A stretch of 26,539 bases of DNA from a virus: the IMG/VR virus record IMGVR_UViG_3300037672_001094, positions 1 through 26,539 of that record; one strand, written 5' to 3'. Shown piece after piece: positions 10,321 through 26,539 of the stretch (its first letter is position 1; every line of letters begins with the position of its first letter). The position numbers were made by a program, and so were the translations under genes. The notes under the pieces are model-generated. The model saw only the letters and a program-made list of their open reading frames with translations, ran no database searches and was not told the origin of the DNA.

Positions 10321-12108
10321 ATGGCTTTAATAGAGGACAGGGGCAAGCAGTTACTAGAACCTAAAATTTGTTCCAAAACAAAACAGATGGATGTGGGTGG
10401 CTTCACCATCCCCCCAACTAGTTTACTCACAGCACTTCTTTATGGTTTCGCTAAACATGAAGAACCCATTGCTCGTGAATATTATTTTTGGAGAATTTGT
10501 GACGAGTTGTGGAACCGCGATGACTTACCAGAAAAATTAATGGTAAAACACCCGTGGGCTGAAATGATGATCCGAGCTGCAATCAACAATAAATATCTTG
10601 CTGTTGGGGGTAGTGCGTCATCTGGAAAATCCCACACCATGGCGGCGTGGGGTATTGTAAATTGGTTGAGCCAGCCCCAAGATACTTTGGTTCTTATGAC
10701 TTCAACTACGCTCCGTGAAGCACGTAAACGTATATGGGGTAGTGTGATGTCTCTCTTATCCGTGATTGATGATGCACCGATCAAGATCAGGGATTCAATT
10801 GGTAACGCTTCCTACGTCAACGAAAAAGACATTCTTATAGAACGGGCTGGGCTTTCATTGATCTCTGCGGAAAAAAGTAAAACTAAAGAGGCAGTCGGAA
10901 AATTCATAGGCATAAAACAGAAGCGTGTACTACTTATTGCGGACGAGATCAGTGAGCTTAGTGAGGCCATCGTTAATGCAGGTCTCACGAACCTGAGTAA
11001 AAACCCTTCATTTCAGATGATTGGTATGAGCAACCCCAACAGCAGGTTTGATGCTTTTGGGATTTGGTCAACTCCTAAAGATGGGTGGGATAGTGTGGAC
11101 ACCAACACTGCTGATGAGTGGGATACTAAATGGAAAGGTAAATATGTACGTTTAGATGGGGAAAGATCCCCAAACATTTTAGCGGGGGAAACAATTTACC
11201 CTTGGCTGCCCACACAAGAAAAACTTGAAGAAGACAAAGCTTTACTGGGGGTGGAGAGCCGAGGATATATGAGAATGGTAAGAGCTGTGTTCTTTGATAG
11301 CGATGAAACGACAGGCATATATACAGAGAACGAAATAACTAATAGCAAGTCCATGAACACTGTTCAATGGAGCAGCACTCCGGTTAATCTCTGTGGGATA
11401 GACCCTGCATTTACCAATGGTGGTGATCGGTCTATTGCTTTCTTAGCTAAGTGCGGCTATGACACTAGTGGTCAATATGTTATAGAGTTTGGGCAAGCCG
11501 TTCATTTAAATGATGACGCAACTAATAAGGCCATTCCAAGGACTTACCAAATTGTAAAACAAATTAAAGACCTCTGCATAAAACATAACGTCCCACCTGA
11601 GAATGTAAGTGTGGATGCCACTGGAGCTGGTGCTCCATTTTGTGACGTTCTCGCAGGTGAATGGTCTAGCCGCTTTATGAGGGTTTCGTTTGGTGGTAAG
11701 GCAAGTGACAAGCGAGTCAGTGCTAACAGTAAACTTGTGGGGCACGAACTATACGTTAACAGGGTATCTGAGTTGTGGTTTGTTGGGAAGGAGTTGATGA
11801 GAACAAATCAAGTCTTTGGGGTAAACTCAGATCTAGCCCAAGAAATAACAGGAAGAAACTACGATCATGTAAAGGGTTCAACTCTCCGCATGAAAATTGA
11901 AAGCAAACCAGAATACAAAGCTCGCTTTGGCAGAAGCCCAGACCTTGCAGACGCAGCGTTTTTGGCGTTAGATTGTGCCCGTCAGAGACTAGGTTTGGTA
12001 GCTGTTGATCCCCCAAAAGAAGGAGATATGTCCTTTAATAAACCCAGACGATCTATAAAAAGATTAGGGGGAGCTTTACAAAACGCTGACACTACCCTAG
12101 TCGATTGA
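10321..12108 (+). CDS. Terminase large subunit (packaging ATPase-nuclease)
   Basis: A 595-residue motor protein that pumps DNA into the procapsid and cuts it. The ATPase has Walker A GGSASSGKS at residues 96-104 (Lys103) and Walker B VLLIADEIS with Asp208/Glu209, followed by the coupling-type MIGMSNPNS segment. The RNase H-like nuclease has Asp361 in CGIDPAF, Asp432 in VSVDATGAG, and Asp541/Asp544 in SPDLADAAF. Length and motif order are standard. The start at 10321 is preceded by an AT-rich stretch without a Shine-Dalgarno sequence. The stop codon overlaps the -35 element of the next promoter, so downstream genes need not depend on terL transcription. A short basic tail (KPRRSIKRL) ends the protein. 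Confidence 0.93.
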   Translation: MALIEDRGKQLLEPKICSKTKQMDVGGFTIPPTSLLTALLYGFAKHEEPIAREYYFWRICDELWNRDDLPEKLMVKHPWAEMMIRAAINNKYLAVGGSASSGKSHTMAAWGIVNWLSQPQDTLVLMTSTTLREARKRIWGSVMSLLSVIDDAPIKIRDSIGNASYVNEKDILIERAGLSLISAEKSKTKEAVGKFIGIKQKRVLLIADEISELSEAIVNAGLTNLSKNPSFQMIGMSNPNSRFDAFGIWSTPKDGWDSVDTNTADEWDTKWKGKYVRLDGERSPNILAGETIYPWLPTQEKLEEDKALLGVESRGYMRMVRAVFFDSDETTGIYTENEITNSKSMNTVQWSSTPVNLCGIDPAFTNGGDRSIAFLAKCGYDTSGQYVIEFGQAVHLNDDATNKAIPRTYQIVKQIKDLCIKHNVPPENVSVDATGAGAPFCDVLAGEWSSRFMRVSFGGKASDKRVSANSKLVGHELYVNRVSELWFVGKELMRTNQVFGVNSDLAQEITGRNYDHVKGSTLRMKIESKPEYKARFGRSPDLADAAFLALDCARQRLGLVAVDPPKEGDMSFNKPRRSIKRLGGALQNADTTLVD

Positions 12109-12140: not shown

Positions 12141-13919
12141 ATGGCTAAACCCGCTAAAAAGAATTCAGGAGGCTTACGATCTAGTAGTTTACGATCAAGT
12201 AGTTTGCGGTCAAGTAGTTTAAGCCCGTCGAAAGGATTACAAAAATCAGGAGGTTTGCAAAAAGACGCACCAAAAGTTGGGAGCGACGAATATTTCCAAG
12301 CACGTTCCCTTACTGGTGGGCCATCAAAAATTGCGAGAAGTGGTGAGGCTGGAGTTCAAGGTGCGGCTGGAGTTCAAGGTGCGGCTGGAGTTCAAGGTGC
12401 GGCTGGGGTTCAAGGTGCGGCTGGAGAGACTGGGTTTCAAAGTGATCGTGGGAGTGGTGGCGCGACTGAAGAAGCAAGAAATCGCCTTTTAAAAAATGTT
12501 GCTGAAACCACGAGTGCTAACCAAGAATCGACAGTTAATACAGGGATGGCGGAGCTGGACGCAGCGGAACGTGATGCACAAAAAACTTCCGCTTTAAACA
12601 AAGCTGAGAGAAGTTTTACCAACCCTACTGGGAAACAAGACTTTGGAGGTACGAACGAAGGAGTAGCTGATGTACTAGCACAAGGAAAGCTCACAGACCC
12701 AGCGACTGATCCTCCTATGGAGTCGCGAGTATCAAATCAACCAGCTCTTAGTCCCGATACTGCTGCTGCTAACGCCGCTGCTAAATCAGCTGAGACCGAT
12801 CCGTATTCACAAGCGAATCTAGATGCTGGTTCTAATGACCCACAAACACCGGATATGACTGGGCTTCTAAGAGTCGCACCCATCATAAAAAAAACTCAAG
12901 ATAAACTTACCGCAGATGCCCTAACTAATGAGGCCACTAAAGGACGAAACCAGCTCCTAGCAAATGTTGATGCGACAAATGAGAAAAACACGGAGGCTCC
13001 AAATCTTTTCGGAGAGACCGAAGAAGAGATGACAGAGGGAGACAAATACTGGAATCTTCAAGATCGAAAAGCCTTAAGGAAAAGAATTACAGAACAAGTC
13101 GCAGCTGGTAACTTTGACGGAGATGGTGGGGTTAATGAATTAGCTGAGAGAGGAATGACTGAGCTAGGCATTGGCAAAAAGGAAATGAACAGGGAGATAC
13201 AGCAGGAAAGAGTAAGTTCTCTTCAAACCAAAGCCAGAGAAAATAGGGCGCAGCGTGAGCGAAGCCAATTAGGGAGCTACCAAGACTTCTATAAAAGGAT
13301 GCAAGACCCCAACAGAACACTGTCGGTTGGGAAGCTTGGGGAGACGAGAAGTTTATATTCTAGGAATGCTGGTTTGCGGAAAGCAAAGAAGCTAAGAAAA
13401 ATGGGATTCACTGCTGCTGCCAACGAAGCAGCTAACGACTGGGCTAAGTCAGCAGATAGTAATGCACCCGCTGTAGCATCACGGAAATACTTAGCCGCAA
13501 GAGATGCCGTACAAGCAAGGGCTGATAGGGCAAGAAACACGAATGCTCAATTGCAACAAGCGATGGCGGATCGTCTTATGGGTAAGATGAAAAACGATCC
13601 TAATTTTTTCCCTGACTTACAAGGTGGTGGGGGAAATAAGTTTCAAGAGCCAGCAGTTCGACAGCCAGAAATGGTTCAAGAGCCATTAGCGCAAACTGGT
13701 GATGGTATGAGAACGATGGAGAAAAGAAACTCCTTCCCTGAAGGATCGTCTAACATGAGGCAGGATTTCTTTAATAATCTGAAAGCTCTCTCAAGTAGGG
13801 GTGCTTTAACCCCTGAAATGTATGCCCAAGCGAGAGAAGAACTTGGTAAATACGAGGGGGTATCGGCTGAAAAATTTGACTCGGTGATGAAAAAAAACCG
13901 AATCCGGCCCTCAAACTAA
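12141..13919 (+). CDS. Disordered repeat-bearing virion protein, probable internal/ejection protein
   Basis: A 592-residue hydrophilic protein, rich in Ala, Gly, Asn, Gln and Lys, with no membrane segment. The first 45 residues hold three LRSSS units and two GLQK units. Residues 71-100 are ten Gly-X-Y triplets (GVQ/GAA alternating, then GET, GFQ), a short collagen-like tract. The middle is disordered and acidic. From about residue 330 it becomes helical and charged (KARENRAQRERSQLG and similar). NFDGDGGVNELAE near residue 324 resembles a calcium-binding loop. It begins at a strong promoter with no leader. Together with the next two genes it looks like a set of internal virion (ejection) proteins, as in T7 gp14-16; this is inferred from order and composition. 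A scaffold or decoration role is possible. Confidence 0.5.
   Translation: MAKPAKKNSGGLRSSSLRSSSLRSSSLSPSKGLQKSGGLQKDAPKVGSDEYFQARSLTGGPSKIARSGEAGVQGAAGVQGAAGVQGAAGVQGAAGETGFQSDRGSGGATEEARNRLLKNVAETTSANQESTVNTGMAELDAAERDAQKTSALNKAERSFTNPTGKQDFGGTNEGVADVLAQGKLTDPATDPPMESRVSNQPALSPDTAAANAAAKSAETDPYSQANLDAGSNDPQTPDMTGLLRVAPIIKKTQDKLTADALTNEATKGRNQLLANVDATNEKNTEAPNLFGETEEEMTEGDKYWNLQDRKALRKRITEQVAAGNFDGDGGVNELAERGMTELGIGKKEMNREIQQERVSSLQTKARENRAQRERSQLGSYQDFYKRMQDPNRTLSVGKLGETRSLYSRNAGLRKAKKLRKMGFTAAANEAANDWAKSADSNAPAVASRKYLAARDAVQARADRARNTNAQLQQAMADRLMGKMKNDPNFFPDLQGGGGNKFQEPAVRQPEMVQEPLAQTGDGMRTMEKRNSFPEGSSNMRQDFFNNLKALSSRGALTPEMYAQAREELGKYEGVSAEKFDSVMKKNRIRPSN
12174..12218 (+). repeat. Three 15-bp tandem repeats encoding LRSSS
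   Basis: Three consecutive 15-base units with small base differences (CGATCT, CGATCA, CGGTCA variants before AGTAGT) encode residues 12-26 of the 592-aa protein. A fourth partial unit (TTAAGC) follows. The unit is a multiple of three, so copy-number change keeps the frame. Confidence 0.85.
12348..12419 (+). repeat. Four 18-bp tandem repeats encoding AGVQGA (collagen-like)
   Basis: Four units of GCTGGAGTTCAAGGTGCG follow each other; the fourth differs by one silent base (GGG for GGA). They encode residues 70-93 and create Gly-X-Y periodicity. The near identity at DNA level indicates recent duplication or active slippage, with the frame preserved. Confidence 0.92.
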
Positions 13920-13937: not shown

Positions 13938-15038
13938 ATGGCTGAACCACAATTTCCAGTTGCAAGCGACGATTTCTTTAATCGTGACATCAAACCACTA
14001 AGGAACACTTTTGGTTTAACGAGTAGGGAGAGTAGCTCCATCACACAGTTTGAAACTCAAGAACTCCAACCTCAATTACAGCAGATGATGCAGTTGCGTT
14101 CGCAACTATTGAGAGAAAGAAATTCTGAGTTGGCTTATCAAAGAGGCTTACTAGAGTTCGAAGAAAAGAAACGGCTGGCACAAGAAGAAATAAATTTCGG
14201 GGAGAGAACAGAAGAGATTACAAAATCTCTAAATAACATTATCGAAGATCCAACTAAAAATAATTTCCAAAAACAAAGAGAGATTGCCGCATTCGGTATG
14301 AAGAATGCCCAGATATTAAGTAAGTTCCCAGCAGCTAGTATAATATTTAAATCAGCAGAGAACTCATTGAAGACGCGCCAAGCTGAAGCTGATGCCGCAG
14401 ATAAAAATTTACAGTCTACATCTAGGGCAGCTACTGTTGGTATCGACCCTAAGATATTTAAGGAGAGTATTAATTCTGACGGAGTGGTTACCGATGCAGA
14501 AGCAATGGAAGAAAGAATCAACCAAGCTAGTTGGGATAGGGGACAAGCTGCTGCTACAAGCAGAGGTGCCGCTGCGAATAAAGCTAAGTTTGATGCCGAA
14601 GAAAAAAGACTGGATAATGAACTCAAGTTATCTAACAGCGAGTATGACTCTATAGAGAAAGCAATAACTGCCATCGAAGATGGCGTACAGTTGCAAATTA
14701 GTGATAAAGAAAACCCCACCGATTACGCAGCTAGGGTAAAAACAGAAAAGATTAATCGTATTAAAAAGCTTTCAATCAGTGATGGCAGAACACTAGGTGA
14801 GCTTGGTGTTACTGACCCCGCTTCAGCAATGGCGCAAATTAGTAAGTTAAGGATGGCAGCGATCGCCGCGAGAAGATCATCTTCACAAGCACGAGCAACG
14901 CAAAATGCAGTAACAGCTCCCAACGGGGCTGGTGCATCCCTTAACCAGCCACAGCCTCAGCAAACCATCCCAATACCTGCTGGTATGACACCAGATCAGC
15001 TTCAACAATTGCAACAATTGCTAGAATCCTTTCAATAA
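13938..15038 (+). CDS. Coiled-coil virion protein, probable internal/ejection protein
   Basis: A 366-residue, mostly helical protein. Residues 40-110 form a charged coiled coil (LRSQLLRERNSELAYQRG, then FEEKKRLAQEEI). The middle has an EF-hand-like loop (SINSDGVVTDAE, residues 177-188), and a second charged helix lies near residues 200-240. The C-terminus is Pro/Gln-rich and ends in Gln-Leu repeats (DQLQQLQQLLESFQ). It starts 18 bases after the preceding stop behind an AT-rich stretch with TAAAAT and no Shine-Dalgarno sequence. Position between the disordered protein and the giant protein suggests the middle member of an ejection-protein trio. No catalytic motif is seen and the family is not recognised. 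Confidence 0.5.
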   Translation: MAEPQFPVASDDFFNRDIKPLRNTFGLTSRESSSITQFETQELQPQLQQMMQLRSQLLRERNSELAYQRGLLEFEEKKRLAQEEINFGERTEEITKSLNNIIEDPTKNNFQKQREIAAFGMKNAQILSKFPAASIIFKSAENSLKTRQAEADAADKNLQSTSRAATVGIDPKIFKESINSDGVVTDAEAMEERINQASWDRGQAAATSRGAAANKAKFDAEEKRLDNELKLSNSEYDSIEKAITAIEDGVQLQISDKENPTDYAARVKTEKINRIKKLSISDGRTLGELGVTDPASAMAQISKLRMAAIAARRSSSQARATQNAVTAPNGAGASLNQPQPQQTIPIPAGMTPDQLQQLQQLLESFQ

Positions 15039-15071: not shown

Positions 15072-18000
15072 ATGACAGACCCAAGCAACTTAAACTCACC
15101 CTTCGTCGAAACAACCTACCAAGATTGGTCTTCCGCAAACCCGTATGAAAACCCTCTCGAAAGTTATGGGAGGTACACTGAGAACGTCAGAAATGAATAC
15201 TTAGACGCAGGCAAGTATGACGAAATAGTAGAAAAGCAACTTAACTATAACCTCAGTCGAGTTTTAAGTAGTGAAGGAATACTTAATGAGGAAAACGCAG
15301 AGGAGATTGGGGACACAATCAGTTCTTTCTCTAAGCTAGATTTAGGGTCTTCCATAAAAACACTTCTTGATGAAGAAGATCCTGAGAACCAATACTTATC
15401 TGATGAAGATAAGCAGAAGTTCAACTTATATGCTACTGCCCAAGAAGTAGATGAAGACGCATCACCATTTGATATTGATCCAGAACAAGCTTTGGAGCTA
15501 TCTGAGATTGTTCGTAAGGCAAATGAAAAGAAGTTTACTGATAAGTTTAAAAGAGGGGAACTGCTCGCAGCAGTAATTGAGGACGAAGAAGGGAATGAAT
15601 TTTTTCTAGGTGGCGATATCCCAGAAGGGATGACCGAATCAGAAGTCATCAAGGAATCTGCTAAGTATGGTGTAACCCCTAAACATTTATTTAATTTACG
15701 CTACAAGAGGGAAGAACACCCACAAGGCAAAGGTCTTAAGAGGTATGAAGTAGACCAAAGACTTCTAGCGGAACGTGAGGTAAGAGAAGTTCTTGAGAAC
15801 ATTGACCCAGCTAACAAGGCAGCTCTATACGGGTTGGCTAAAAACTACGGGGAGAATGCAACTTGGGATAACTTTGATAAGTTTAACGACTGGGCGACAG
15901 ATGGGTTCGGAGACTTCCTTCGTACGTTCCGCATAGGGTGGAATGATTTGGTGGGGGATGATGAGGAGCGTGACGAACTTATAGACGATAGCTTTAAGGA
16001 TACCCTTGAAGAACATTATCAAGAAAGGACGGACATAGCTAAACTTCAACTTATCGGAGATTTGTCTAGGGCCACTGGTTTCAGTGGGGAATTATTAGAG
16101 GACGTAGTTAGTGAGCTAATAGTTAAGTATGCTTTCGAAGGTGACGCAAAAGAGAACGTTAAGCCGTTTCTCAAGTATACTGATAACGCCGAAGAGTTGG
16201 GGCAAAATGTATATCAGACAAGGTATAGTGGAGTTCTTGTAGCTAATGAACTGATGCTATCCCCCGTTGAATTTAGAGCGGCTTTAAAGCAAGCTAACGT
16301 AACCGAAGCTGAGGCAGCTCAAGCGGAGGCCCAAAGACAACTAGCCGTAGTAGATAACTTCGAAAGAATCTCTGGCCTTTTAAGTAAAGACGATGCGTTC
16401 TCTGAAGAATGGGGAGACGCATTGATTGAAGGAAGGCAGTTGGGGTTATCCAACTCTTCAATCTTAGAGAAGTTTAAAGCCGAATTTGATTTCAGCCCAA
16501 CACTGCACAGGCTTAAAGGAGTAGGGAGTAGCGTCTGGGAAGGGCTAACATCTATTGCTTACGGCGTAGGTGCTGCCATGGACACTGACTGGGGGCGTGA
16601 AGGTTTGCTTGAGATTGCAGAAGACAACGCACACGACAGAGAAGTAGCCAAAGTATTTGGGTTAGAAATGGGGGGAGGGCAGGATTTTGCTGAAGCTATT
16701 GCCCCATTATTTGCAGATGCTCTTGTCACAGCTGGACTTGTTATTCTAACTAAGCCCACTGCTGGCACCAGTTTAGCAGCATTAGCATCCTATACTGGAG
16801 CTAAAGCAACAGCTTCAGCTTCTGCTAGGGTTGTAATATCAGCAGCTTCTAGGGGGATGTTGAAGACAGTGGGTAAAGAAACTGTCGAGCAGGCAGCTCA
16901 AAGGGTATTAAAATCAGGGGCCTTAAAAGGTGCAACCAAAGAAAGAACTCTCGCCGTTGTTAAAGCATACAATGGAAACATCGCTTCGAAACTTGGAGTC
17001 GGAACCGCTGCGTTTATTCCTGCCGCTACCAGATCAGGTGCTAATACTTATGGTGCAGTGTATAAAACAGTATCAGATGATTTAACCCTTAAGCATAAAG
17101 GACAAGATGGGCAATGGGAAGAAGGGTGGAGTGAAGACAGAGTAAAAGAAGAATCTCACGATAAAGCATTTGGGTCTGCATTAACAGCAGGAACAATAAC
17201 TGGTTTATTAACGTCTACTTTCTCCGCTCTGGGTAAGGGTGGTTTGGAAGATGCGTTCCTTCAGGGGATGAGCTTCCGTCAGATGAGGCAGATTACTTCT
17301 AATGTCCTTGGTCGAAATGTGGGGGATGATACTTTCAAAGAGTTAATAAAGAAAGCACTTAAGAAAGTAACTCGCAAACACGCATTGATTGCAGCACCCA
17401 CTAAGTTTGCAAAGTCATCATTGGATGAAGGATTTGAAGAAGGACTAGACGAGTTCTTCAACATCATGGTTCAAGACATTTACACGAACCAAGACACGGA
17501 GATGTTTGATAGGATGCAGCAAGTCTGGCACGGTTTCGTGTTGGGGGCTGCGCTGGGTGGGGCAGGTAATATCGTTAGCAAGGCCGCTAAAAACATCGCC
17601 CCTAATAAATTCCTAGACAGGGGGGCCGCTGCACAAGTGGAGCAAGAAGTATTTAAACAGTTTGAAGCTGACGTAGAAGCTGAAGGACTTGGTGCTCAAC
17701 TGAGGGAATCAGGATCTCCCGCTACGGCGGCAGAAGCAGAGAGACAAGTAAGACAATACAAAAGATCAGAGCGTCCTGAGATGGAGGCACGTTTATCCTC
17801 CGCCGCAATTGATGAAGAAGAAGACGCAGTATCCGAAGCGGACGTAATAATTGATGAGGAAACCAAAGAACTAACTCAAGAAGATTTAGACAGACTTAAT
17901 TATGAATTGCAGACAGAGGTAACTAGCGAGGCTATCCAAGCGGAGATAGCAAATATGCAGGCACAGAATCTTCAACAGGGCAACAACCCTGATGTCGAGG

Positions 18001-21000
18001 GCACTGCTGCTGAACAAGCGTTAGCAGATTCAGAAGGAACAGCCGTAGCTGGTAGTGTTGCAATTACTTCTCAGCATACAGCTAAGAAAATAAACCAAGA
18101 TTACAAACAAGATTACGAGGCCACACTACTCTCAGTAGATGCGAAGAGGAAGCTCCATCAAAAAATGGAGAAGCGCATCATGGCTCTATCAGGCAACCCT
18201 GCCATTAGGGCTACCAGAGAACTCAAGCTCGCTGAGAATGAGGGCCGTGCCTTCTCAAGGAAGAAGGCAGCTTTCATGCGGATGAAGGCAAAGGAAACTC
18301 TCGACGCAAACTTAGTTAAACAAGCTGAGTCAGACGCCAAGGGCACGAAAGAAATAAAAGCAGCAGGTATAGACCCTCTCGTTAATGCGGGTTTTGCACA
18401 TCAACTTACCGTAGACCAGCTAGAACGTTTGGGTGTGTCCACTAATAAAATGGATAGGGCAGCCTTGAACACTTTGGGTAAGGAACTGAAGAAGAGGATT
18501 CAAGAAAAGTATCCGGTTCAAACAGACTCCTTCACCAAGAAGGCTAGTTCAATGCCTAAGGTTTATGGGGGTCAGGGCAAAGTTTTCTTAGACGAAAAAG
18601 GGAATGGTATTTTTAATAATGACCCAGTAGCTATGCTCACTTTCTTGGAGAGTGGCATCCCTATTCCTGTCCCCTCAACCGCTATAGATAGTGGGACTCT
18701 TAATCCTTCTTTCGAACTCTCGACTGGATCGGGCCAGCGTTATGTTACAGACATTAGGGTTCAGGAATCAGGAGGCACAGTGTCTGCGAATACAGCGTTT
18801 AACAAAGTTGGTGTGCTGGAAGAAGACTACTCTGTTATTGCTAATCTTGCGAGCCGACTTAATGAGCTGAAACAAAATGTTAACCTCAATCAACTTGAGG
18901 ATCTTAAAGTTGTTAACCCGTTTAACACTAGAACCAAGAGCATTAAGCTATCCACTATCTACGACAGGGTAAAAGATTTCAATACGTTCACTAATATATT
19001 TGAGAACATTTACGCTACAGACAGTTCCTACAAAGGAATGTCCAAAGCATTCAAGGATACAGCAAACATAGCTGCCAGCCTTGAGATGCAGATTTCTGTT
19101 CTTGAGTACGCACAGAATGTTTCTGCTAATGCAGAAGTAGACCCCGTCCCATTCAACGCTTCTGAAGTCTTGAGAAGACAGGGCAAGTATGCAATGGGTC
19201 AGCAGGTCGCTAGAAAGAAGAGAGCCACTAGAAGTTTTGTAAGTGTGCTCGACCCCAACAGCAAACTCTACCAGAGCACCAACGTTGGAGAGGTGGCAAA
19301 AGATAATTACGTAGCACCAAAGCCTAACCCACTCCCACCCTTACCAACTAGAAAGGTCAAAGACTATGGTGAGACATTGATTGAAGAGGGGGTAGAAGCT
19401 ATGAAGGGCAGCACCGAATTGCTCGCTAGAGTAGCAAAGGTAGTCAACGAGGAATATCATAATGATGCTGGCAGGGCTTTCGACTTAGAACCAGATGAGT
19501 TGTTTGACGAACTTATCCAGTTTGTTTCTAAAGGTGCTTTCAATAACAACCAACCTCTTGTTGACCTACAGTCAGACTTGAAGCGTGGATTGTTTGGGGG
19601 ACAAGGTCAGACAGTTCGCAAGGTTTTCAGGACGCTTAGTCTGATGAACCCTAACGTTGATGTGTCTATCGAAAATGATCCTGCCTTCCTACAAGAATTT
19701 AAGGCAGACCTACAGCAAATAGCTGGTGCTGATTACACCGTTACAGATGATCAAGTAGTTACTTTCTATACCGACATATCGATGTCTCAAGAGGCCAACC
19801 ACCAACGAGCTATTGTCAATGGCAGGTCAATGGACATAAACGAATCCATTAACCGGACACACTTGGAAGGGTTGGGTATTTCGGACAATAGTCCAGAGGG
19901 AGTTATTAATGCGCTTGAGAAACTAACTACTTTCAAGAATAAGAAATCTGCGCTTAGTCCTCTAGGTGCCGCAGCTGAAGTCTTCTTAATCGACACAGCC
20001 TTTATCAGGAAGATTAAGTTTTCTTTCGAGGCAACTGCTGCCAACTACGCAGGTAAAACTTACACAGATAGAAATGGTGTAACGAATATCGTCATCAATA
20101 TTGCGAGGGATGCAGAGGGTGGCGTAGCTCAAACACTAGTTCATGAATTATCACACGCGTTTACTAACCGTGTCATTGATCTACCTGCTGAAGCAAGAAC
20201 ACCTGAGCAGAACAACGCAATCAACAGAGTTGAGTCGTTGATTAAGTTGCTAAGGAAGAGGGCTGCTAGGGAGAATGCACCCGACTCCGTTCTTTATGGG
20301 CTAACAAACATAGAAGAATTTTCAGCTGCCATAATGACATCCCGTGACTTCCAAACTTTCTTGAGTGGGATGAAAGTAGGGGAAGGTCAGAGAAGCTTTT
20401 TAGCTCGTGCTCTTGAGGCCATCTCTAGGCTAATTGCAAGAGCTGGCAAGGCGCAAGCTAAGGCTGATAAAGCAATGCAGGATGTTCTCACACTCGTGGG
20501 TAAGCGTGAGTTCCCTGATCCTGAATCAAGAACAGGATTCACAAACCATGTTGCAGCGACTGTCAACCGAAGGCAGACCAGCCGATCAAGGTTAGCTACC
20601 AGTATTGGGATGGCAGAAGATATCACTGTCAACGAAGCTCTCGATAATGCTGCTGTAGAATACTTCTCTTTCGTAGTCGATTACGTGCCAGATGAAATTA
20701 ACGTAGTCATGGATAACACCACTGACGTTATCGCTGAGTGGGACGCAGAAACAGAGTCTATTATCTTCAATGGAAGAAGGGCTGCTGCAAAAGTAAATCA
20801 AATGGTAGCGGCAGTAGGTGGCGCACCAATCCGAAGAGATCACATCTTGGCAGCAATCCTTAATGAAGAGGTCGCACACGTTGCTTCATTCGCTCGCTTA
20901 TCTAAAGCGGAGATTCAAGAACTCATGGCGAGCCTGAATGACGTTGATGCTCAGAGTATCATCGAACAGTATTACCCAGAGGGTGAGAGAGCAGCAGCTT

Positions 21001-24000
21001 TAGAAAGATTCAGGAGTGAAGATGCAGCTGTAAGCGAAGGGGAAAGATTTATTCTTGTAGAAGAACAACTACGAATCCACGTACAAAAAGTATTGCGAGG
21101 ATCTGAGACTAATGAGCAGGTTAACTTCTTATTAGAGAACCCAACTACGCTCGGTACTGTTAAAGCGTATTTCAAGAATTATCTTACCAAGATAACATAC
21201 GCTAGAAAACTTAAGGACGTATCCCCTGAAATGAGGGACGCAGTAAACAGAGTGGTAGCTGAGGTGCGAGCTATGGAGGCAGGGTATAGACTCACCCCTA
21301 ATGGTATGCACTTTGATATCAACAACCCTGAGGGTGGTCTTAACCAGATTCTTAAACAGTTGGAGATGCATCAGTCCATCACCCCACGAGAGGATGACGA
21401 TACTGCCAGCCTGCAATCAAGACTTGGGTCTGACACAGACCTTAAGTTATCTGACTTTGATGTAGACTCTTTCCCAAGTGAGTTTGATTTATTTAAGACC
21501 AAGGGTGGCAAGATTAAAGGTGCCCCTCCCCAAGTAAAATCAAACAAGGGGGTAGAGAAGCTAATGGATAGGCTCAAGCAACTGACCATAGAGGGATCTG
21601 TGGGTAGGTTCTGGTATGAAGACGCCGCCGACAAGATCTTAGAGATTAGTAATGGAGACTTAGTAGAAGCAGAAAAGTTCACCGCCCTTCTCGCTATCTA
21701 CTCACCACAGACAGGGGTTGAAGTTAATACTTACTTTGCTGTTCGTGCGTATGAACAACACGCGAACGGAGTTTCTCGTGAAGATTATCAAGTTAAAACA
21801 AAAGTGCAGGATGACAAAGCGAGGGCAGTTCTGTATGACACAGCACCTTGGAAGGGTCGTAAGACGGATAACTTCTACAAGAACTTAATGTTCCATTTAG
21901 TTTCGAAAGCATCTCCTGAGGATTTAGCTTCGATGCAGATAGACACAGAGTTTCTTAATGATATCCAGCAGCCAGTAACCGTAGACATGTGGGTTTACAG
22001 AGCCATGGGTTACGACACCATTGGGCTTACAGATGATAAAGGACAAGGTGCTTTCGGGTTTTCTGAAAAACTAATCAACAGACTTGCATATGCTCTCAAT
22101 CAAAACAGGGCACCTGAAGCTGCTCCCTACCAAGCACACCAGATACAGGCTATGCTTTGGACTGCGATTAAAGCTAGGTCAGAAGATAAAGATGTTAAAA
22201 AGAAGACCGAAGCTCAGAGTATAAGGGCAGGAGATCTTAAAATAATTTACCCTCAAGGTAAGAAGACCAGAAAATTCCCAAGCAAAGAAGGCGAGCGTAA
22301 GCACCAGCTTAGGTGGACAAAGAACGCACTCGCCGCAGAAGGGGTAGACTTTCTCGAAGCATCTCGCTCGTTTGATTACTTCGTTAACTCAATGGGACTC
22401 ACGGCAACGTGGGAAGTTATTGCTTCTGAGCAAACACCAATAGGTAAGAAGCTTGCAGCTATGACTACCGAGCAGAAGAGGTCATTCACTGAGCAGGCTA
22501 TGCAACTTATTGTAGATCCTGTTACTGGTGAGGACACCCTTGCTAGAGATTTAGGCATAGCAATATCTACAGCTAAAATGTCTATGGGTGGTTACGCTGG
22601 TGGAGTAACTCCGAATGTGTTGTCCACGCTTTACCCTAATAAACCAGCAGGTGATTACGATGATGACGCGATCCGCTCTTACTCCAGATCACTACAGTAT
22701 ATCTTCATGCAGGATGCTGTGCCGTGGTCTCGTCTAGTTAAGACAACCAAAGAAGACTTACATTACAAAGTAGTAAATGAGAATGGGAGAACCATACGCA
22801 AGTTTGATTCTCAAGGGGCTGCGGAAGACTACGCAGCTAAAGCTGAGAAAGATTATACAGTCGTAGGCGGGGAACAATCATCCGGCATTAACTTGGCTTT
22901 TGATGGAGAGCTTACTGAAAACAAACTACAGGAAATACAAGACTACCTGTCATCAGTAAACTCAGATTTAGGGTTAACCCAGATTTCTGATAACGAAGTT
23001 ATTGTGGTTAACTATAAGATGGATTACAATAATATGCTGCCTGTCTTGACAGACGAAGAATTTGCTAATAAAATAATTGAAAGATATGGAAAAGAAACAG
23101 AACAAACCTACTTCACAACAGTCGGAGAATACGGATACCACGACTGGGCGACCGACAATGAAGGAGCTGCTATCCTCGAAACCAGTCCCCGATTCACACC
23201 CGATGTTCAAGAGAGGGTTCGTGATCGGAGGGAGAGGTTTCTCCAAATCTCGACGGACACAGAAGGAACAGTAACCCCAAGGTTACAATCGCGCCACGGT
23301 GCGAACTCCTATATACCTAAGGAGATAGACGCTGATACTGTAGACTTCAGCAACTGGGTTGAGATGCTTGACATCCCACTCATGGAGTTTGGAACTTACA
23401 AATCTCCATCCACTTTATTTGGTAAGTTAATCAAAGGGTATGCTGACCGTGACCTCATTCGTCTGAAGGAGGAGCGTGATTCTTATGTAAGAGAAGCTAA
23501 GAAACTCGGTGAAGATTTTAAACAGAAGCACGACAGGTTAATCAAAGAAGAGGCGGCCAACGGGGTAGAGATACCACCAGAACTCATCTCTCGTGCGTCT
23601 GGTTCAAACCAAGGAACTCAGTTAACGGATGAACAAGCTGATAGTGTTGAAGCTCGATTTGATAAAGAACGAGCCAAAGCTAACAGGGCAACTGACCCAA
23701 AGAAGCGGAACTTGTTACTGGCTATCGCTGAAAAAAACAAAGTAGAAAACACCAAGAACCTACGCAAAGAAAACAGGAAGGCATTACTGGCTGACAGGGA
23801 TCAGGCACTGAAGGATCTCTTGGCGATCTCGTCAAGGGCACACACAATGATTCTTGATCTCCGTAAGTTGATCGATGATCTATCTGCCCAAGGCAACGAA
23901 TTATTTAGTGACTTCATCCAAGGTAAGGATGAGTTCAATGCTGTGTTCGATATGAACGGCGGCCTCTACATCACGAGAAGATACCGTATGTTTGAGGACA

Positions 24001-26539
24001 ATGATTACTTGGCTAGGGTTCGTGATGAATCAGACCCGACTTATACTCAACAGAGACAGGACGCCATCAACTTCTTCTCCAAACAATACATGGATTACCA
24101 TGTAGCACGGGAGATGGATAAAGGACTCAGTAAAAAGGATGCACGATTCAATGTGCAATTAGAATTAGAACAGAAAGGATCTTCTGCCAGAACGAAAGGC
24201 AAGGACTTGATGACTGAGTTCCTTAACTCATATGAGAAGAATGCAATTACCAAGGAGCTAGATATCTATGAATCGGCAGATGGTGGGCGCAGCATTATGA
24301 TGAACGAGAAGAAGTTCAAAGGCAGCGTCCTCAATGCACTTGCTAAGAATCTTAATCAGAAACAGAACATCCCATCGCCAATAAGAAGATTGCTTGGCGA
24401 GTATGGAGATGAGTCAGCAGCTGGTAACTTAAGCCACACTCTTGTCCATACCGCTACAGTCATGGCTAACCAATCCTTCTTTAACCGAGTTGTTGAGTAT
24501 GGGAGTAAGGGTGATAACCCTTGGTTAGTTACGGAGGAGATGATCCAAGAAGATCTAGAACTTCCAGTGTCCCAGCAAAAGTATACGGGTTGGCAAAAGC
24601 TTAAAGCTGATGGAGGCCCAATGGATTGGAACCCCCTCAAAGGTTACTATACCAAGAAAGAAATCGTTAAGGACTTCGATGATCTAATCAACATGTCCAA
24701 GGCAGAGGTCGCTACCAAAGAGACAAGCAGCCCATCTGTGTATGTTGCAAGTAAACTATTAGGGTATCTCCACAGAGCTACTGGATTATCTTTGGCGGCT
24801 AAGACTCTTGGTTCAGTAGGATTCTATGTTCGAAACATGTTAGGTAACGCCATGTTCTTTGGCCCAATGCAGGGTTACGTAGGCGGAGTTGGTAAAGCAT
24901 TCGGGGAAGGTGTGGGCGTAGGAGCGGCATTCTTTGGGGACGCAGAAAACAGCAAGTCACAGATAGTCAGAGCCGCCTTAGGATCTAGGGCAGCTATGGA
25001 TGCAGAGCTTACAGTCTTAGCTTCGATGAATGTATTCGGAGACGAACTGGAAGCCAACCTCTTAAGAGATTTACTTACAGGACAGCTGACCATACCTTCC
25101 GCAGAAAACAAACTTGCTGGTATCGCAAAGAAGGTAGAGGACAAATTAAAGATAGGGAAGAAAGCTTACGACGAAGCAGTGGCTACTGCCACTAGGCTCG
25201 CTTCTGCAATGGACGCTTACTACAAGATTGGATTATATGAGTTTGAACTAGACACATTGTTGAGAGCAGCTAAGGCGGATCCAAAAGGTGGGGAGTTTGC
25301 AAAACTACTAGATGCTGATGGTAATCCTTCAGTTAACATGAAGAGAGCAGCGGCCATCAAAGTTAAGAAAACATCCCAAGCTTATAGCCAAGCACCCCCA
25401 ATAATCAAAGGGCTTACTCGCCACCCAGTTGGGGTGTTGATAGCTCCATACGTAAGGTTCGCGGCAGAGATTCCTAGAGTTACTTTGAATACCATCTCTT
25501 TAATTAGGGAAGAAAAGAGGCAGGGAAAAACAAACCCTGTCATGAGGGCACGTTACATGAAGAGAGTGGCAGGCATGCTAAGTACAATGTCCTTCACGTT
25601 CGCAGTGCCAATATTCCTCAAGATGTTAGCTGAAATAGGTGAAGACGAAGATGAAGCTTTGAGGTTGGGCATGCCTTTCTACTTGAGAGATCACACCTTC
25701 TACTACCTCAAAGAAAAGGACGGGGATATATGGTCATTAGATCTCACATACCTCAACCCCTTCTCAGTTATTGCTGACCCAGTAGCCAGATCTTTTGAAA
25801 CACTATTCGACGAGGGGGAGATCAATCCTGTTGAGGCAGGGTCAGAACTACTTGGTGGTTTGTTTAGACCTTACTTCAACGAGCAGATATTATCGGGTGC
25901 TGTAACGGATGTCGTTACAAATGAAAATCAATATGGTAATAAGATAAGATACGGGGATGACATGGGTAAGAACTTCCTAAGAAGTTTCAAATATGTCTGG
26001 GAGAAAGCTTATGAGCCTAGATCATTAGCAAAACTTCGCCAGACTTTCAGAGCAATAGAAGGGGACAACCCTTCGAACGATATGTTTGCCAGCCCACTAG
26101 GACTTATCTTCGGTGAACTCCTACCAGTAAAACCATACAAGGTAGACCTCAACAGTAACCTTAGGAATTATCTGAAAGCACACACAGATGATTACAGAGA
26201 AATAAACTCAAAGCAAAACGCTTTGCTCAGTCCTAAGACCAGTATGTTGGATGGTGATATATACAATATCTACGATGACATCCACAATACTCGACTAAGT
26301 TTGAACAATGATTTCCGAAGAATCACGAGGGCTTACAACAACTTAGGCGTAAGCTGGAGTGAGATCCAAGCACAAGCGAAGTCGCGAGGCGTTAGCAAAG
26401 AACGATTAACAATGAACTACAACGGCTGGATGAATAAACCTGTCTTATCTAAGTTCATAGAAGAAAGGTTACAGGCAACCGAAACAGGTAGATCAAGATC
26501 CCGTAAGTTCTTTAACTACTCAAATAAAGACGAAAGATA
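15072..26539 (+). CDS. Giant multidomain virion-type protein (at least 3,822 aa), 3' end outside window
   Basis: The frame opens at ATG 15072 and contains no stop through the last base, giving 3,822 codons. Residues 1-480 are soluble and acidic. Hydrophobic, Gly/Ala-rich helical stretches occur near 538-590, 642-665, 698-725 and 818-835, with an amphipathic EGFEEGLDEFF helix at about 785. Helical linkers fill 850-1250. A gluzincin-type site (HELSH, 1691-1695) is followed by a degenerate one (EEVAH, 1932-1936), a DNA-glycosylase-like segment (2200-2380) and a long coiled coil (2780-2950). Then come segments typical of 'large polyvalent' phage proteins (GLYITRRYRMFED at 2964) and late hydrophobic stretches near 3250, 3452 and 3501. 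This suits an ejected internal virion protein with several activities, possibly self-processed. It starts 33 bases after the previous gene, without a Shine-Dalgarno sequence. Confidence 0.85.
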   Translation, partial: MTDPSNLNSPFVETTYQDWSSANPYENPLESYGRYTENVRNEYLDAGKYDEIVEKQLNYNLSRVLSSEGILNEENAEEIGDTISSFSKLDLGSSIKTLLDEEDPENQYLSDEDKQKFNLYATAQEVDEDASPFDIDPEQALELSEIVRKANEKKFTDKFKRGELLAAVIEDEEGNEFFLGGDIPEGMTESEVIKESAKYGVTPKHLFNLRYKREEHPQGKGLKRYEVDQRLLAEREVREVLENIDPANKAALYGLAKNYGENATWDNFDKFNDWATDGFGDFLRTFRIGWNDLVGDDEERDELIDDSFKDTLEEHYQERTDIAKLQLIGDLSRATGFSGELLEDVVSELIVKYAFEGDAKENVKPFLKYTDNAEELGQNVYQTRYSGVLVANELMLSPVEFRAALKQANVTEAEAAQAEAQRQLAVVDNFERISGLLSKDDAFSEEWGDALIEGRQLGLSNSSILEKFKAEFDFSPTLHRLKGVGSSVWEGLTSIAYGVGAAMDTDWGREGLLEIAEDNAHDREVAKVFGLEMGGGQDFAEAIAPLFADALVTAGLVILTKPTAGTSLAALASYTGAKATASASARVVISAASRGMLKTVGKETVEQAAQRVLKSGALKGATKERTLAVVKAYNGNIASKLGVGTAAFIPAATRSGANTYGAVYKTVSDDLTLKHKGQDGQWEEGWSEDRVKEESHDKAFGSALTAGTITGLLTSTFSALGKGGLEDAFLQGMSFRQMRQITSNVLGRNVGDDTFKELIKKALKKVTRKHALIAAPTKFAKSSLDEGFEEGLDEFFNIMVQDIYTNQDTEMFDRMQQVWHGFVLGAALGGAGNIVSKAAKNIAPNKFLDRGAAAQVEQEVFKQFEADVEAEGLGAQLRESGSPATAAEAERQVRQYKRSERPEMEARLSSAAIDEEEDAVSEADVIIDEETKELTQEDLDRLNYELQTEVTSEAIQAEIANMQAQNLQQGNNPDVEGTAAEQALADSEGTAVAGSVAITSQHTAKKINQDYKQDYEATLLSVDAKRKLHQKMEKRIMALSGNPAIRATRELKLAENEGRAFSRKKAAFMRMKAKETLDANLVKQAESDAKGTKEIKAAGIDPLVNAGFAHQLTVDQLERLGVSTNKMDRAALNTLGKELKKRIQEKYPVQTDSFTKKASSMPKVYGGQGKVFLDEKGNGIFNNDPVAMLTFLESGIPIPVPSTAIDSGTLNPSFELSTGSGQRYVTDIRVQESGGTVSANTAFNKVGVLEEDYSVIANLASRLNELKQNVNLNQLEDLKVVNPFNTRTKSIKLSTIYDRVKDFNTFTNIFENIYATDSSYKGMSKAFKDTANIAASLEMQISVLEYAQNVSANAEVDPVPFNASEVLRRQGKYAMGQQVARKKRATRSFVSVLDPNSKLYQSTNVGEVAKDNYVAPKPNPLPPLPTRKVKDYGETLIEEGVEAMKGSTELLARVAKVVNEEYHNDAGRAFDLEPDELFDELIQFVSKGAFNNNQPLVDLQSDLKRGLFGGQGQTVRKVFRTLSLMNPNVDVSIENDPAFLQEFKADLQQIAGADYTVTDDQVVTFYTDISMSQEANHQRAIVNGRSMDINESINRTHLEGLGISDNSPEGVINALEKLTTFKNKKSALSPLGAAAEVFLIDTAFIRKIKFSFEATAANYAGKTYTDRNGVTNIVINIARDAEGGVAQTLVHELSHAFTNRVIDLPAEARTPEQNNAINRVESLIKLLRKRAARENAPDSVLYGLTNIEEFSAAIMTSRDFQTFLSGMKVGEGQRSFLARALEAISRLIARAGKAQAKADKAMQDVLTLVGKREFPDPESRTGFTNHVAATVNRRQTSRSRLATSIGMAEDITVNEALDNAAVEYFSFVVDYVPDEINVVMDNTTDVIAEWDAETESIIFNGRRAAAKVNQMVAAVGGAPIRRDHILAAILNEEVAHVASFARLSKAEIQELMASLNDVDAQSIIEQYYPEGERAAALERFRSEDAAVSEGERFILVEEQLRIHVQKVLRGSETNEQVNFLLENPTTLGTVKAYFKNYLTKITYARKLKDVSPEMRDAVNRVVAEVRAMEAGYRLTPNGMHFDINNPEGGLNQILKQLEMHQSITPREDDDTASLQSRLGSDTDLKLSDFDVDSFPSEFDLFKTKGGKIKGAPPQVKSNKGVEKLMDRLKQLTIEGSVGRFWYEDAADKILEISNGDLVEAEKFTALLAIYSPQTGVEVNTYFAVRAYEQHANGVSREDYQVKTKVQDDKARAVLYDTAPWKGRKTDNFYKNLMFHLVSKASPEDLASMQIDTEFLNDIQQPVTVDMWVYRAMGYDTIGLTDDKGQGAFGFSEKLINRLAYALNQNRAPEAAPYQAHQIQAMLWTAIKARSEDKDVKKKTEAQSIRAGDLKIIYPQGKKTRKFPSKEGERKHQLRWTKNALAAEGVDFLEASRSFDYFVNSMGLTATWEVIASEQTPIGKKLAAMTTEQKRSFTEQAMQLIVDPVTGEDTLARDLGIAISTAKMSMGGYAGGVTPNVLSTLYPNKPAGDYDDDAIRSYSRSLQYIFMQDAVPWSRLVKTTKEDLHYKVVNENGRTIRKFDSQGAAEDYAAKAEKDYTVVGGEQSSGINLAFDGELTENKLQEIQDYLSSVNSDLGLTQISDNEVIVVNYKMDYNNMLPVLTDEEFANKIIERYGKETEQTYFTTVGEYGYHDWATDNEGAAILETSPRFTPDVQERVRDRRERFLQISTDTEGTVTPRLQSRHGANSYIPKEIDADTVDFSNWVEMLDIPLMEFGTYKSPSTLFGKLIKGYADRDLIRLKEERDSYVREAKKLGEDFKQKHDRLIKEEAANGVEIPPELISRASGSNQGTQLTDEQADSVEARFDKERAKANRATDPKKRNLLLAIAEKNKVENTKNLRKENRKALLADRDQALKDLLAISSRAHTMILDLRKLIDDLSAQGNELFSDFIQGKDEFNAVFDMNGGLYITRRYRMFEDNDYLARVRDESDPTYTQQRQDAINFFSKQYMDYHVAREMDKGLSKKDARFNVQLELEQKGSSARTKGKDLMTEFLNSYEKNAITKELDIYESADGGRSIMMNEKKFKGSVLNALAKNLNQKQNIPSPIRRLLGEYGDESAAGNLSHTLVHTATVMANQSFFNRVVEYGSKGDNPWLVTEEMIQEDLELPVSQQKYTGWQKLKADGGPMDWNPLKGYYTKKEIVKDFDDLINMSKAEVATKETSSPSVYVASKLLGYLHRATGLSLAAKTLGSVGFYVRNMLGNAMFFGPMQGYVGGVGKAFGEGVGVGAAFFGDAENSKSQIVRAALGSRAAMDAELTVLASMNVFGDELEANLLRDLLTGQLTIPSAENKLAGIAKKVEDKLKIGKKAYDEAVATATRLASAMDAYYKIGLYEFELDTLLRAAKADPKGGEFAKLLDADGNPSVNMKRAAAIKVKKTSQAYSQAPPIIKGLTRHPVGVLIAPYVRFAAEIPRVTLNTISLIREEKRQGKTNPVMRARYMKRVAGMLSTMSFTFAVPIFLKMLAEIGEDEDEALRLGMPFYLRDHTFYYLKEKDGDIWSLDLTYLNPFSVIADPVARSFETLFDEGEINPVEAGSELLGGLFRPYFNEQILSGAVTDVVTNENQYGNKIRYGDDMGKNFLRSFKYVWEKAYEPRSLAKLRQTFRAIEGDNPSNDMFASPLGLIFGELLPVKPYKVDLNSNLRNYLKAHTDDYREINSKQNALLSPKTSMLDGDIYNIYDDIHNTRLSLNNDFRRITRAYNNLGVSWSEIQAQAKSRGVSKERLTMNYNGWMNKPVLSKFIEERLQATETGRSRSRKFFNYSNKDER
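20040..20400 (+). other. Zinc metallopeptidase (gluzincin-like) domain inside the giant protein
   Basis: Residues about 1657-1777. A strand (NIVINIA) is followed by QTLVHELSHAFTN, with His1691, Glu1692 and His1695 forming the HExxH site. After a 50-residue helical insert, YGLTNIEEFSAAIMT supplies Glu1748 or Glu1749 as the likely third zinc ligand. This spacing and the 'EEF.A' ending are typical of peptidase-like domains in large phage and conjugative-element proteins. Possible roles are self-processing of the giant protein or attack on host envelope proteins during entry. All canonical residues are present. Confidence 0.7.
21540..22200 (+). other. HhH-GPD DNA glycosylase-like (DUF7178-like) domain inside the giant protein
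   Basis: Residues about 2157-2377. The order is a helix with LAIYSPQTGVEVNTYFA, then APWKGRKTDNFYKN (hairpin-like, with Lys2264 in GRKT as in endonuclease III), then VTVDMWVYRAMGY with Asp2305 where the family has VDTH..R. A helix with QIQAMLWTA follows. The Lys-to-Asp distance (41 residues) is longer than in endonuclease III because of an insert. Similar arrangements occur in phage proteins grouped as DUF7178. Base-excision activity on phage or host DNA is a hypothesis. Confidence 0.45.
23940..24270 (+). other. Large-polyvalent-protein-type segment inside the giant protein
   Basis: Residues about 2957-3066 begin with FDMNGGLYITRRYRMFEDNDYL and continue through charged helices (FFSKQYMDYHVAREM, then FNVQLELEQKG). 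A 'YITR-Y-FED-YL' start recurs in very large phage virion proteins. No catalytic residues stand out. It probably acts as a structural or binding module. Confidence 0.4.

Follow-up and report, generated by a model that had tools for sequence, protein, structure and literature searches.

A giant gene of uncultured marine phages and its probable product, an injected polyvalent virion protein with a conserved chassis and one exchangeable cargo slot

The IMG/VR virus record IMGVR_UViG_3300037672_001094, itself a fragment, was analysed over its entire length of 26,539 b (hereafter the window; all features given below by coordinates lie on the plus strand). It harbors a giant gene (15072..26537), which has 3,822 codons in the window and probably encodes a polyvalent protein that is packaged in the virion, injected into the host, and constructed from a conserved chassis and exchangeable cargo. 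Structurally, the N-terminal chassis (residues 1-2112; 15072..21407) is kept in all relatives according to a BLASTP map and alignments, the cargo slot (residues 2120-2737; 21429..23282) varies in content and length between relatives, and the C-terminal chassis (residues 2738-3822; 23283..26537) is mostly helical. The concept of the polyvalent protein, in which a peptidase and other enzymes are united in one injected phage protein, has been described together with proposals of injection and autoproteolysis (PMC5512222). Two traits of that class were recognized here, namely several unrelated catalytic domains (the zincin metallopeptidase domain D1 and DUF7178 in the window, and ADP-ribosyltransferase (ART), GNAT, and methyltransferase domains in relatives) and a zincin-like metallopeptidase (MPTase) hub with the HExxH motif, a downstream glutamate, and a matching fold.

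The giant gene is a single frame that starts with ATG at 15072 and runs without a stop codon to the end of the window. A preliminary description of this DNA had already reported one uninterrupted frame and had called for its stop codon to be located; the absence of a stop codon before the window ends is trivial. The closest relative (L106), which shares 80-92% identity by segment, terminates with ...FFNYGNKYDRYIPLED*, and the chain in the window finishes with ...FFNYSNKDER, so that the alignment to the end of L106 places the terminus about six residues past the window and the full protein at ~3,828 residues. Relatives were collected by a terminase scan, and 80 contigs were retained out of the 506 related viral ones that it yielded. 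Among the first 24 relatives checked, the N-terminal part was present in all 24 and the C-terminal part in 23, and one TAA in one record was the only internal stop. A search with the C-terminal profile revealed one frame of at least 2,581 residues around the match in 76 of 77 loci; the homologous frames span 2,581-5,394 residues, and the gene was found in every relative reaching the region. Residues 1-~2110 and ~2736-3822 are conserved at 25-90% identity in nearly all of the 20 relatives in the BLASTP map. An assembly error joining separate genes, which the preliminary description had itself named as a danger to its claim, is excluded by these single frames kept across relatives. An intein was weighed as well and then set aside. 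The phage group is common, marine, and uncultured: named phages searched with the N-terminal half and with the cargo alone gave no match, and bacterial genomes supplied just three contigs, binned in marine metagenome-assembled genomes, with no prophage found.

The first line of evidence for a virion-borne protein comes from the C-terminal chassis, the profile of which matched gp123 of the Cellulophaga phage phi18:3 (E 1.9e-34), annotated as a structural protein from tandem mass spectrometry (MS/MS). It also matched the Pseudoalteromonas phage vB_Pun_Y3 (E 1.4e-52), in the latter of its two giant genes. These homologues differ from the window protein in that the identity is just ~21-29% and the repeated linkers described below were not found there; moreover, in vB_Pun_Y3 the C-terminal part forms a separate gene, unlike the single chain of the window, and its upstream domains comprise ddrB-ParB, LPD, ART, and methyltransferase. 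The second line is provided by D1 (residues 1633-1838; 19968..20585), which carries HELSH at residues 1691-1695 (20142-20156) and, near residue 1748, an EEF glutamate that is conserved in the alignment. The D1 family profile found two phage proteins in the Protein Data Bank (PDB): 9sfn_G, which is an internal virion protein (5e-10), and 8vb2_A, the tetrameric ejection protein gp48 of phiM1 (1e-8), in which HEAAHA is aligned on the HExxHA of D1. The predicted structure of D1, with a predicted local distance difference test (pLDDT) score of 80-90, resembles a zincin (Z 8.0) and the C-terminal region of the N4 virion RNA polymerase (vRNAP; Z 7.3). Because of the phi18:3 gp123 homology and the match of D1 to ejection proteins, the protein appears to be virion-borne and injected, in agreement with the virion or ejection type suggested by the preliminary description. 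The membrane-type segments that had been described near both ends were likewise recovered by hydropathy scanning: a conserved hydrophobic region at residues 542-600 (16695..16871), within which residues 542-564 reach a Kyte-Doolittle mean of 1.97, and a segment at residues 3502-3523 near the C-terminus (25575..25640; mean 1.54), both at equivalent positions in most relatives scanned.

Several observations weigh against this assignment. The profiles of the N- and C-terminal chassis yielded no credible match among solved structures in the PDB, and the homology between D1 and the ejection proteins spans ~140 residues only. A minority of relatives no longer carry HExxH in D1, and in about 15 of 73 the motif is missing from both zincin sites. 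In addition, a search with the terminase large subunit among 50,697 named phages gave no match, which means that no member of the group is isolated in that collection.

The zincin region consists of two related domains. HExxH followed by a downstream ligand is present in D1, which bears out the peptidase signature noticed earlier, and was counted in 73 deduplicated relatives: 49 carry it in D1, nine in D2, and ~15 in neither. The second zincin-like site of the preliminary description also proved to be a domain (D2, residues 1845-2099; 20604..21368), the motif of which is altered to EExxH in this phage (EEVAH at residue 1932; 20865-20879), the first histidine being mostly lost among relatives. 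D2 is interpreted as a second, mostly altered zincin, because it aligns with D1 end to end at the profile level (E 7e-6 in one comparison), mostly carries EExxH, and retains HExxH in nine relatives; its model displays the same helix-three strands-helix order as D1. As a side observation, EEYVH replaces HExxH in D1 of L168, L174, L175, L177, L178, L181, L183, and L210, and L174 and L178 possess HELAH in D2 instead, as if activity might have shifted between the two zincin copies.

In its presumed mode of action the giant protein resembles N4 vRNAP and the ejection proteins of T7 and phiM1, and it differs from each of them in its make-up. D1 with HExxHA is shared by profile with phiM1 gp48 (PDB 8VB2, PMC11440229), but the window protein is three times larger than phiM1 gp48 or proteins of the T7 gp16 type, and the remaining chain is without detectable relation to them. 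T7 gp16 and the phiM1 OEP possess a peptidoglycan-cutting domain, and no lysozyme or transglycosylase match was obtained in the giant protein by Pfam or PHROG. Residues 382-515 of 8VB2 chain A were described as endolysin/exotransglycosidase-like (PMC11440229); judged from its motif, this part of phiM1 gp48 suits a zincin reading better and may be a metallopeptidase. N4 vRNAP (gp50), with ~3,500 residues, a hydrophobic N-terminal part, an HExxH domain, and a large helical C-terminal part (PMC12633501), is comparable in size and layout as well as in the fold of D1, whereas the window protein is devoid of an RNA polymerase domain and holds exchangeable cargo in its middle instead.

The exchange of cargo can be followed directly among relatives. 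In 91 of them the slot measures 11-2,069 residues, with 17 slots of 50 residues or fewer. The chassis of L116 and L117 are 98% identical, and the two proteins differ by one extra module of ~280 residues, which is 77% identical to the entire slot of L123. Similarly, L120 and L123 share a 98% identical chassis, and the slot of L120 is empty and that of L123 filled. Between the window and L116-L118, identity reaches 63-64% in the module and 28-31% in the chassis. At the sequence level, the gain, loss, and exchange of modules within the slot are thus established. The recognized cargo types are DUF7178, the ART-PolyVal ADP-ribosyltransferase, GNAT acetyltransferase, and methyltransferase. Separately, residues 738-804 of the L115 slot gave a weak PHROG match (2e-4) to positions 2173-2239 of the N4 virion RNA polymerase family.

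In the window phage, the cargo includes DUF7178 (residues 2176-2370; 21597..22181), identified by Pfam with 42.8 bits against a cut-off of 27, which looks like a family of helix-hairpin-helix (HhH) glycosylases. A hairpin lysine followed by an aspartate some 18 or more residues on is the catalytic signature of HhH-GPD enzymes, and such a pair is found in Lys2264 and Asp2305 (K119/D160 of alignment A8), which are invariant in 35 sequences and align with the catalytic lysine and aspartate of endonuclease III (Nth Lys120/Asp138 motifs). In a first structure model, built on 25 rows and spanning both zincins and the cargo, the cargo was poorly resolved, and the domain was therefore folded alone with deeper rows. 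The resulting model (m77fa9d9106f7; pLDDT ~90 in the core, 72.5 overall) was compared with the PDB, where nearly all of the top 50 rows are HhH glycosylases, with Z 3.5-7.7 and most of the domain covered; in Foldseek, every E-value for this model exceeded 1. The window cargo alone and stand-alone DUF7178 alone were negative against the endonuclease III profile alignment, and the combined DUF7178 profile aligned collinearly with it (E 6e-4, one comparison). Z values below 8 are middling, and the case for the HhH fold rests on the uniform structure list, the motif, and the profile taken together. The DNA-glycosylase-like segment of the preliminary description is thereby given a Pfam identity and a predicted glycosylase fold. 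A base or a nucleoside hydrolase is possible, because a queuine-salvage N-glycosidase of related fold (DUF2419) ranks second in the structure list. The second half of the cargo may adopt a ferredoxin-like fold (residues 2601-2688; 22872..23135), weakly indicated by structure comparison of the first model (Z 6-7.8), and the cargo profile had no credible match in the PDB.

DUF7178 also occurs outside giant proteins of this kind. In the cyanophage 9515-10a, a stand-alone DUF7178 gene has a methyltransferase gene directly upstream and an RNA polymerase gene a few genes away, and the homologue gp63 of the cyanophage S-CRES3 is annotated as an N-glycosylase/DNA lyase. The cyanophage domain is alignable end to end with that of the window, including the invariant lysine and aspartate; the difference is that it constitutes a small stand-alone gene, whereas the domain of the window is fused into a giant protein and bears an insertion between the two residues. 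Homologous segments were further detected in the Roseobacter phage CRP-738, where they belong to large proteins encoded close to the portal, and in Rctr197k, within a gene of 6.1 kb. The stand-alone gene itself is very common in marine phage contigs, with at least 489 confirmed matches (loci L240-L319).

The preliminary description had regarded a peptidase and a base-excision-like domain in one ejected protein as new. The union of a peptidase with other enzymes is as such known from polyvalent proteins (PMC5512222) and from the HExxH domain of N4 vRNAP (PMC12633501), and it is the glycosylase-type domain that appears to keep its novelty. The surveyed polyvalent proteins (PMC5512222) likewise join a zincin MPTase to ART-PolyVal, methyltransferase, and acetyltransferase effectors in a large protein near late genes. 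The giant protein differs from them in its one conserved chassis, its single slot, its clade-specific linkers, and an HhH-glycosylase-type cargo unnamed in that survey, where the word "glycosylase" is absent from the text. What looks new is hence a glycosylase-type domain in such a protein, a single cargo slot, and repeated linkers, the last of which the preliminary description had not noticed.

These linkers flank each module, repeat inside one protein, and differ by clade. In the window, the left linker LQSRLG (residues 2114-2119; 21408..21428) lies in a stretch of the model with pLDDT below 50, which is probably disordered, and the right linker is (R)LQSRHG (residues 2737-2743; 23280..23300). 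LQ[ST]RxG occurs at two sites of the window protein, both slot ends, against 0.026 in the shuffled protein. In L113 (4,775 residues) it is confined to 2134, 2450, 2952, 3326, and 3677, which are the two ends of the slot and three module joints. Other clades employ LESRFGAD (L156), xSGIT (L116/L118), VGTSFGD (L150/L153), or VR.TQAG (L191/L205) in place of the LQSRxG of the window's clade. In two automatic tests with strict placement, the left and right sides resembled each other significantly in 13 of 27 and 14 of 38 filled slots. Among pairs of identical linker residues, 33 of 114 share their codon in the LQSR clade (33.2 expected from codon usage), 74 of 207 in the SGIT clade (60.6 expected, a slight excess), and 52 of 72 in the TSFGD clade (23.8 expected, a clear excess). 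These counts are descriptive, as neither the pairs taken from one protein nor the related proteins are independent of each other. Because codon sharing in the window's clade equals the expectation, selection there appears to act on the linker peptide and not on the DNA.

Two explanations of the linkers have to be weighed. Tentatively, the protein could be an injected polyprotein, the zincin of which would cut the linkers, whether ahead of injection, in its course, or afterwards, and thereby turn chassis and cargo enzymes into separate proteins. It is conceivable, if on the doubtful side, that changeable anti-host enzymes would thus be freed at clade-specific linkers by the protein's own peptidase, among them a glycosylase of base-excision type acting prior to phage gene expression. 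The polyprotein is favored by the position of the linkers at each module boundary, their repetition and clade specificity, the conservation of peptide instead of DNA in the window's clade, and the probably disordered stretch in which the linker lies; autoproteolysis by such peptidases was proposed earlier (PMC5512222), and DdrB of phage P1 is processed. Against it, N4 vRNAP possesses an HExxH domain and yet is packaged unprocessed (PMC5512222), and the linker copies of the TSFGD clade are alike in DNA as well. Linker repeats occur in 12 of 27 proteins of the HExxH class and in 2 of 11 without HExxH, so that an association between intact HExxH and linker repeats is not established, the numbers being small and the classes related.

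Alternatively, the linkers would be recombination joints, short pieces of shared DNA that serve module swapping and have no protein role. The modules are clearly exchanged and the copies are near-identical in DNA in some clades, but codon identity in the window's clade stands only at expectation, leaving too little shared DNA for guiding recombination, and this explanation is considered unlikely. A tape-measure protein of the tail in which enzymes are embedded would also be very long, helical, virion-related, and equipped with hydrophobic segments; a length difference of ~280 residues between 98% identical phages and matched relatives that are podovirus ejection proteins render it very improbable. 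The zincin fold shared with N4 vRNAP could also suggest a giant N4-type RNA polymerase or an early effector outside the virion. This is scarcely credible, given a structural protein as the chassis homologue, the failure of Pfam, PHROG, and NCBIfam to match an RNA polymerase, and DxDxD occurring only twice, both times within the variable cargo, with no single-subunit RNA polymerase domain recognized.

For the injected polyvalent protein, the following course can be envisaged. The protein would be packed in the phage head, and the chassis would provide packaging and passage through the envelope by means of its hydrophobic segments and helical parts. The cargo enzymes, which in the window phage would be the HhH-GPD domain (DNA/base N-glycosylase type) and the ferredoxin-like domain, would then enter the cell ahead of phage gene expression and act early in infection. 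With some reserve, the zincin may be supposed to cut the linkers and free the cargo, and the exchange of modules in the slot would allow related phages to change their early effectors.

The genes directly upstream agree in orientation with the giant gene, and its place behind the terminase speaks for the virion reading. The terminase large subunit (10321..12108; PHROG 2, E 4e-14) is encoded upstream and is followed by a 592-residue protein with tandem GAAGVQ repeats (12141..13919), the PHROG matches of which are collagen-like tail fibres, and by a 366-residue coiled protein (13938..15038) that adjoins the giant gene. By position, the former is a candidate partner ejection or virion protein and the latter a candidate partner ejection protein. 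A replication block comprising primase, PolA-type polymerase, exonuclease, and RuvC-like resolvase is situated on the opposite strand.

Phage proteins that accompany the DNA into the cell are difficult to detect. On the mode of their release this phage group offers a natural experiment, in which one chassis and one slot receive many cargos and near-identical pairs differ by one module. The linker sequence predicts the putative cut sites, and the group makes self-processing of cargo by the peptidase of an ejection protein directly testable. DUF7178 emerges as a likely family of HhH glycosylases on which many marine phages draw. If the polyprotein proposal is true, these phages would swap early effectors like cassettes, always at one fixed place within a virion protein.
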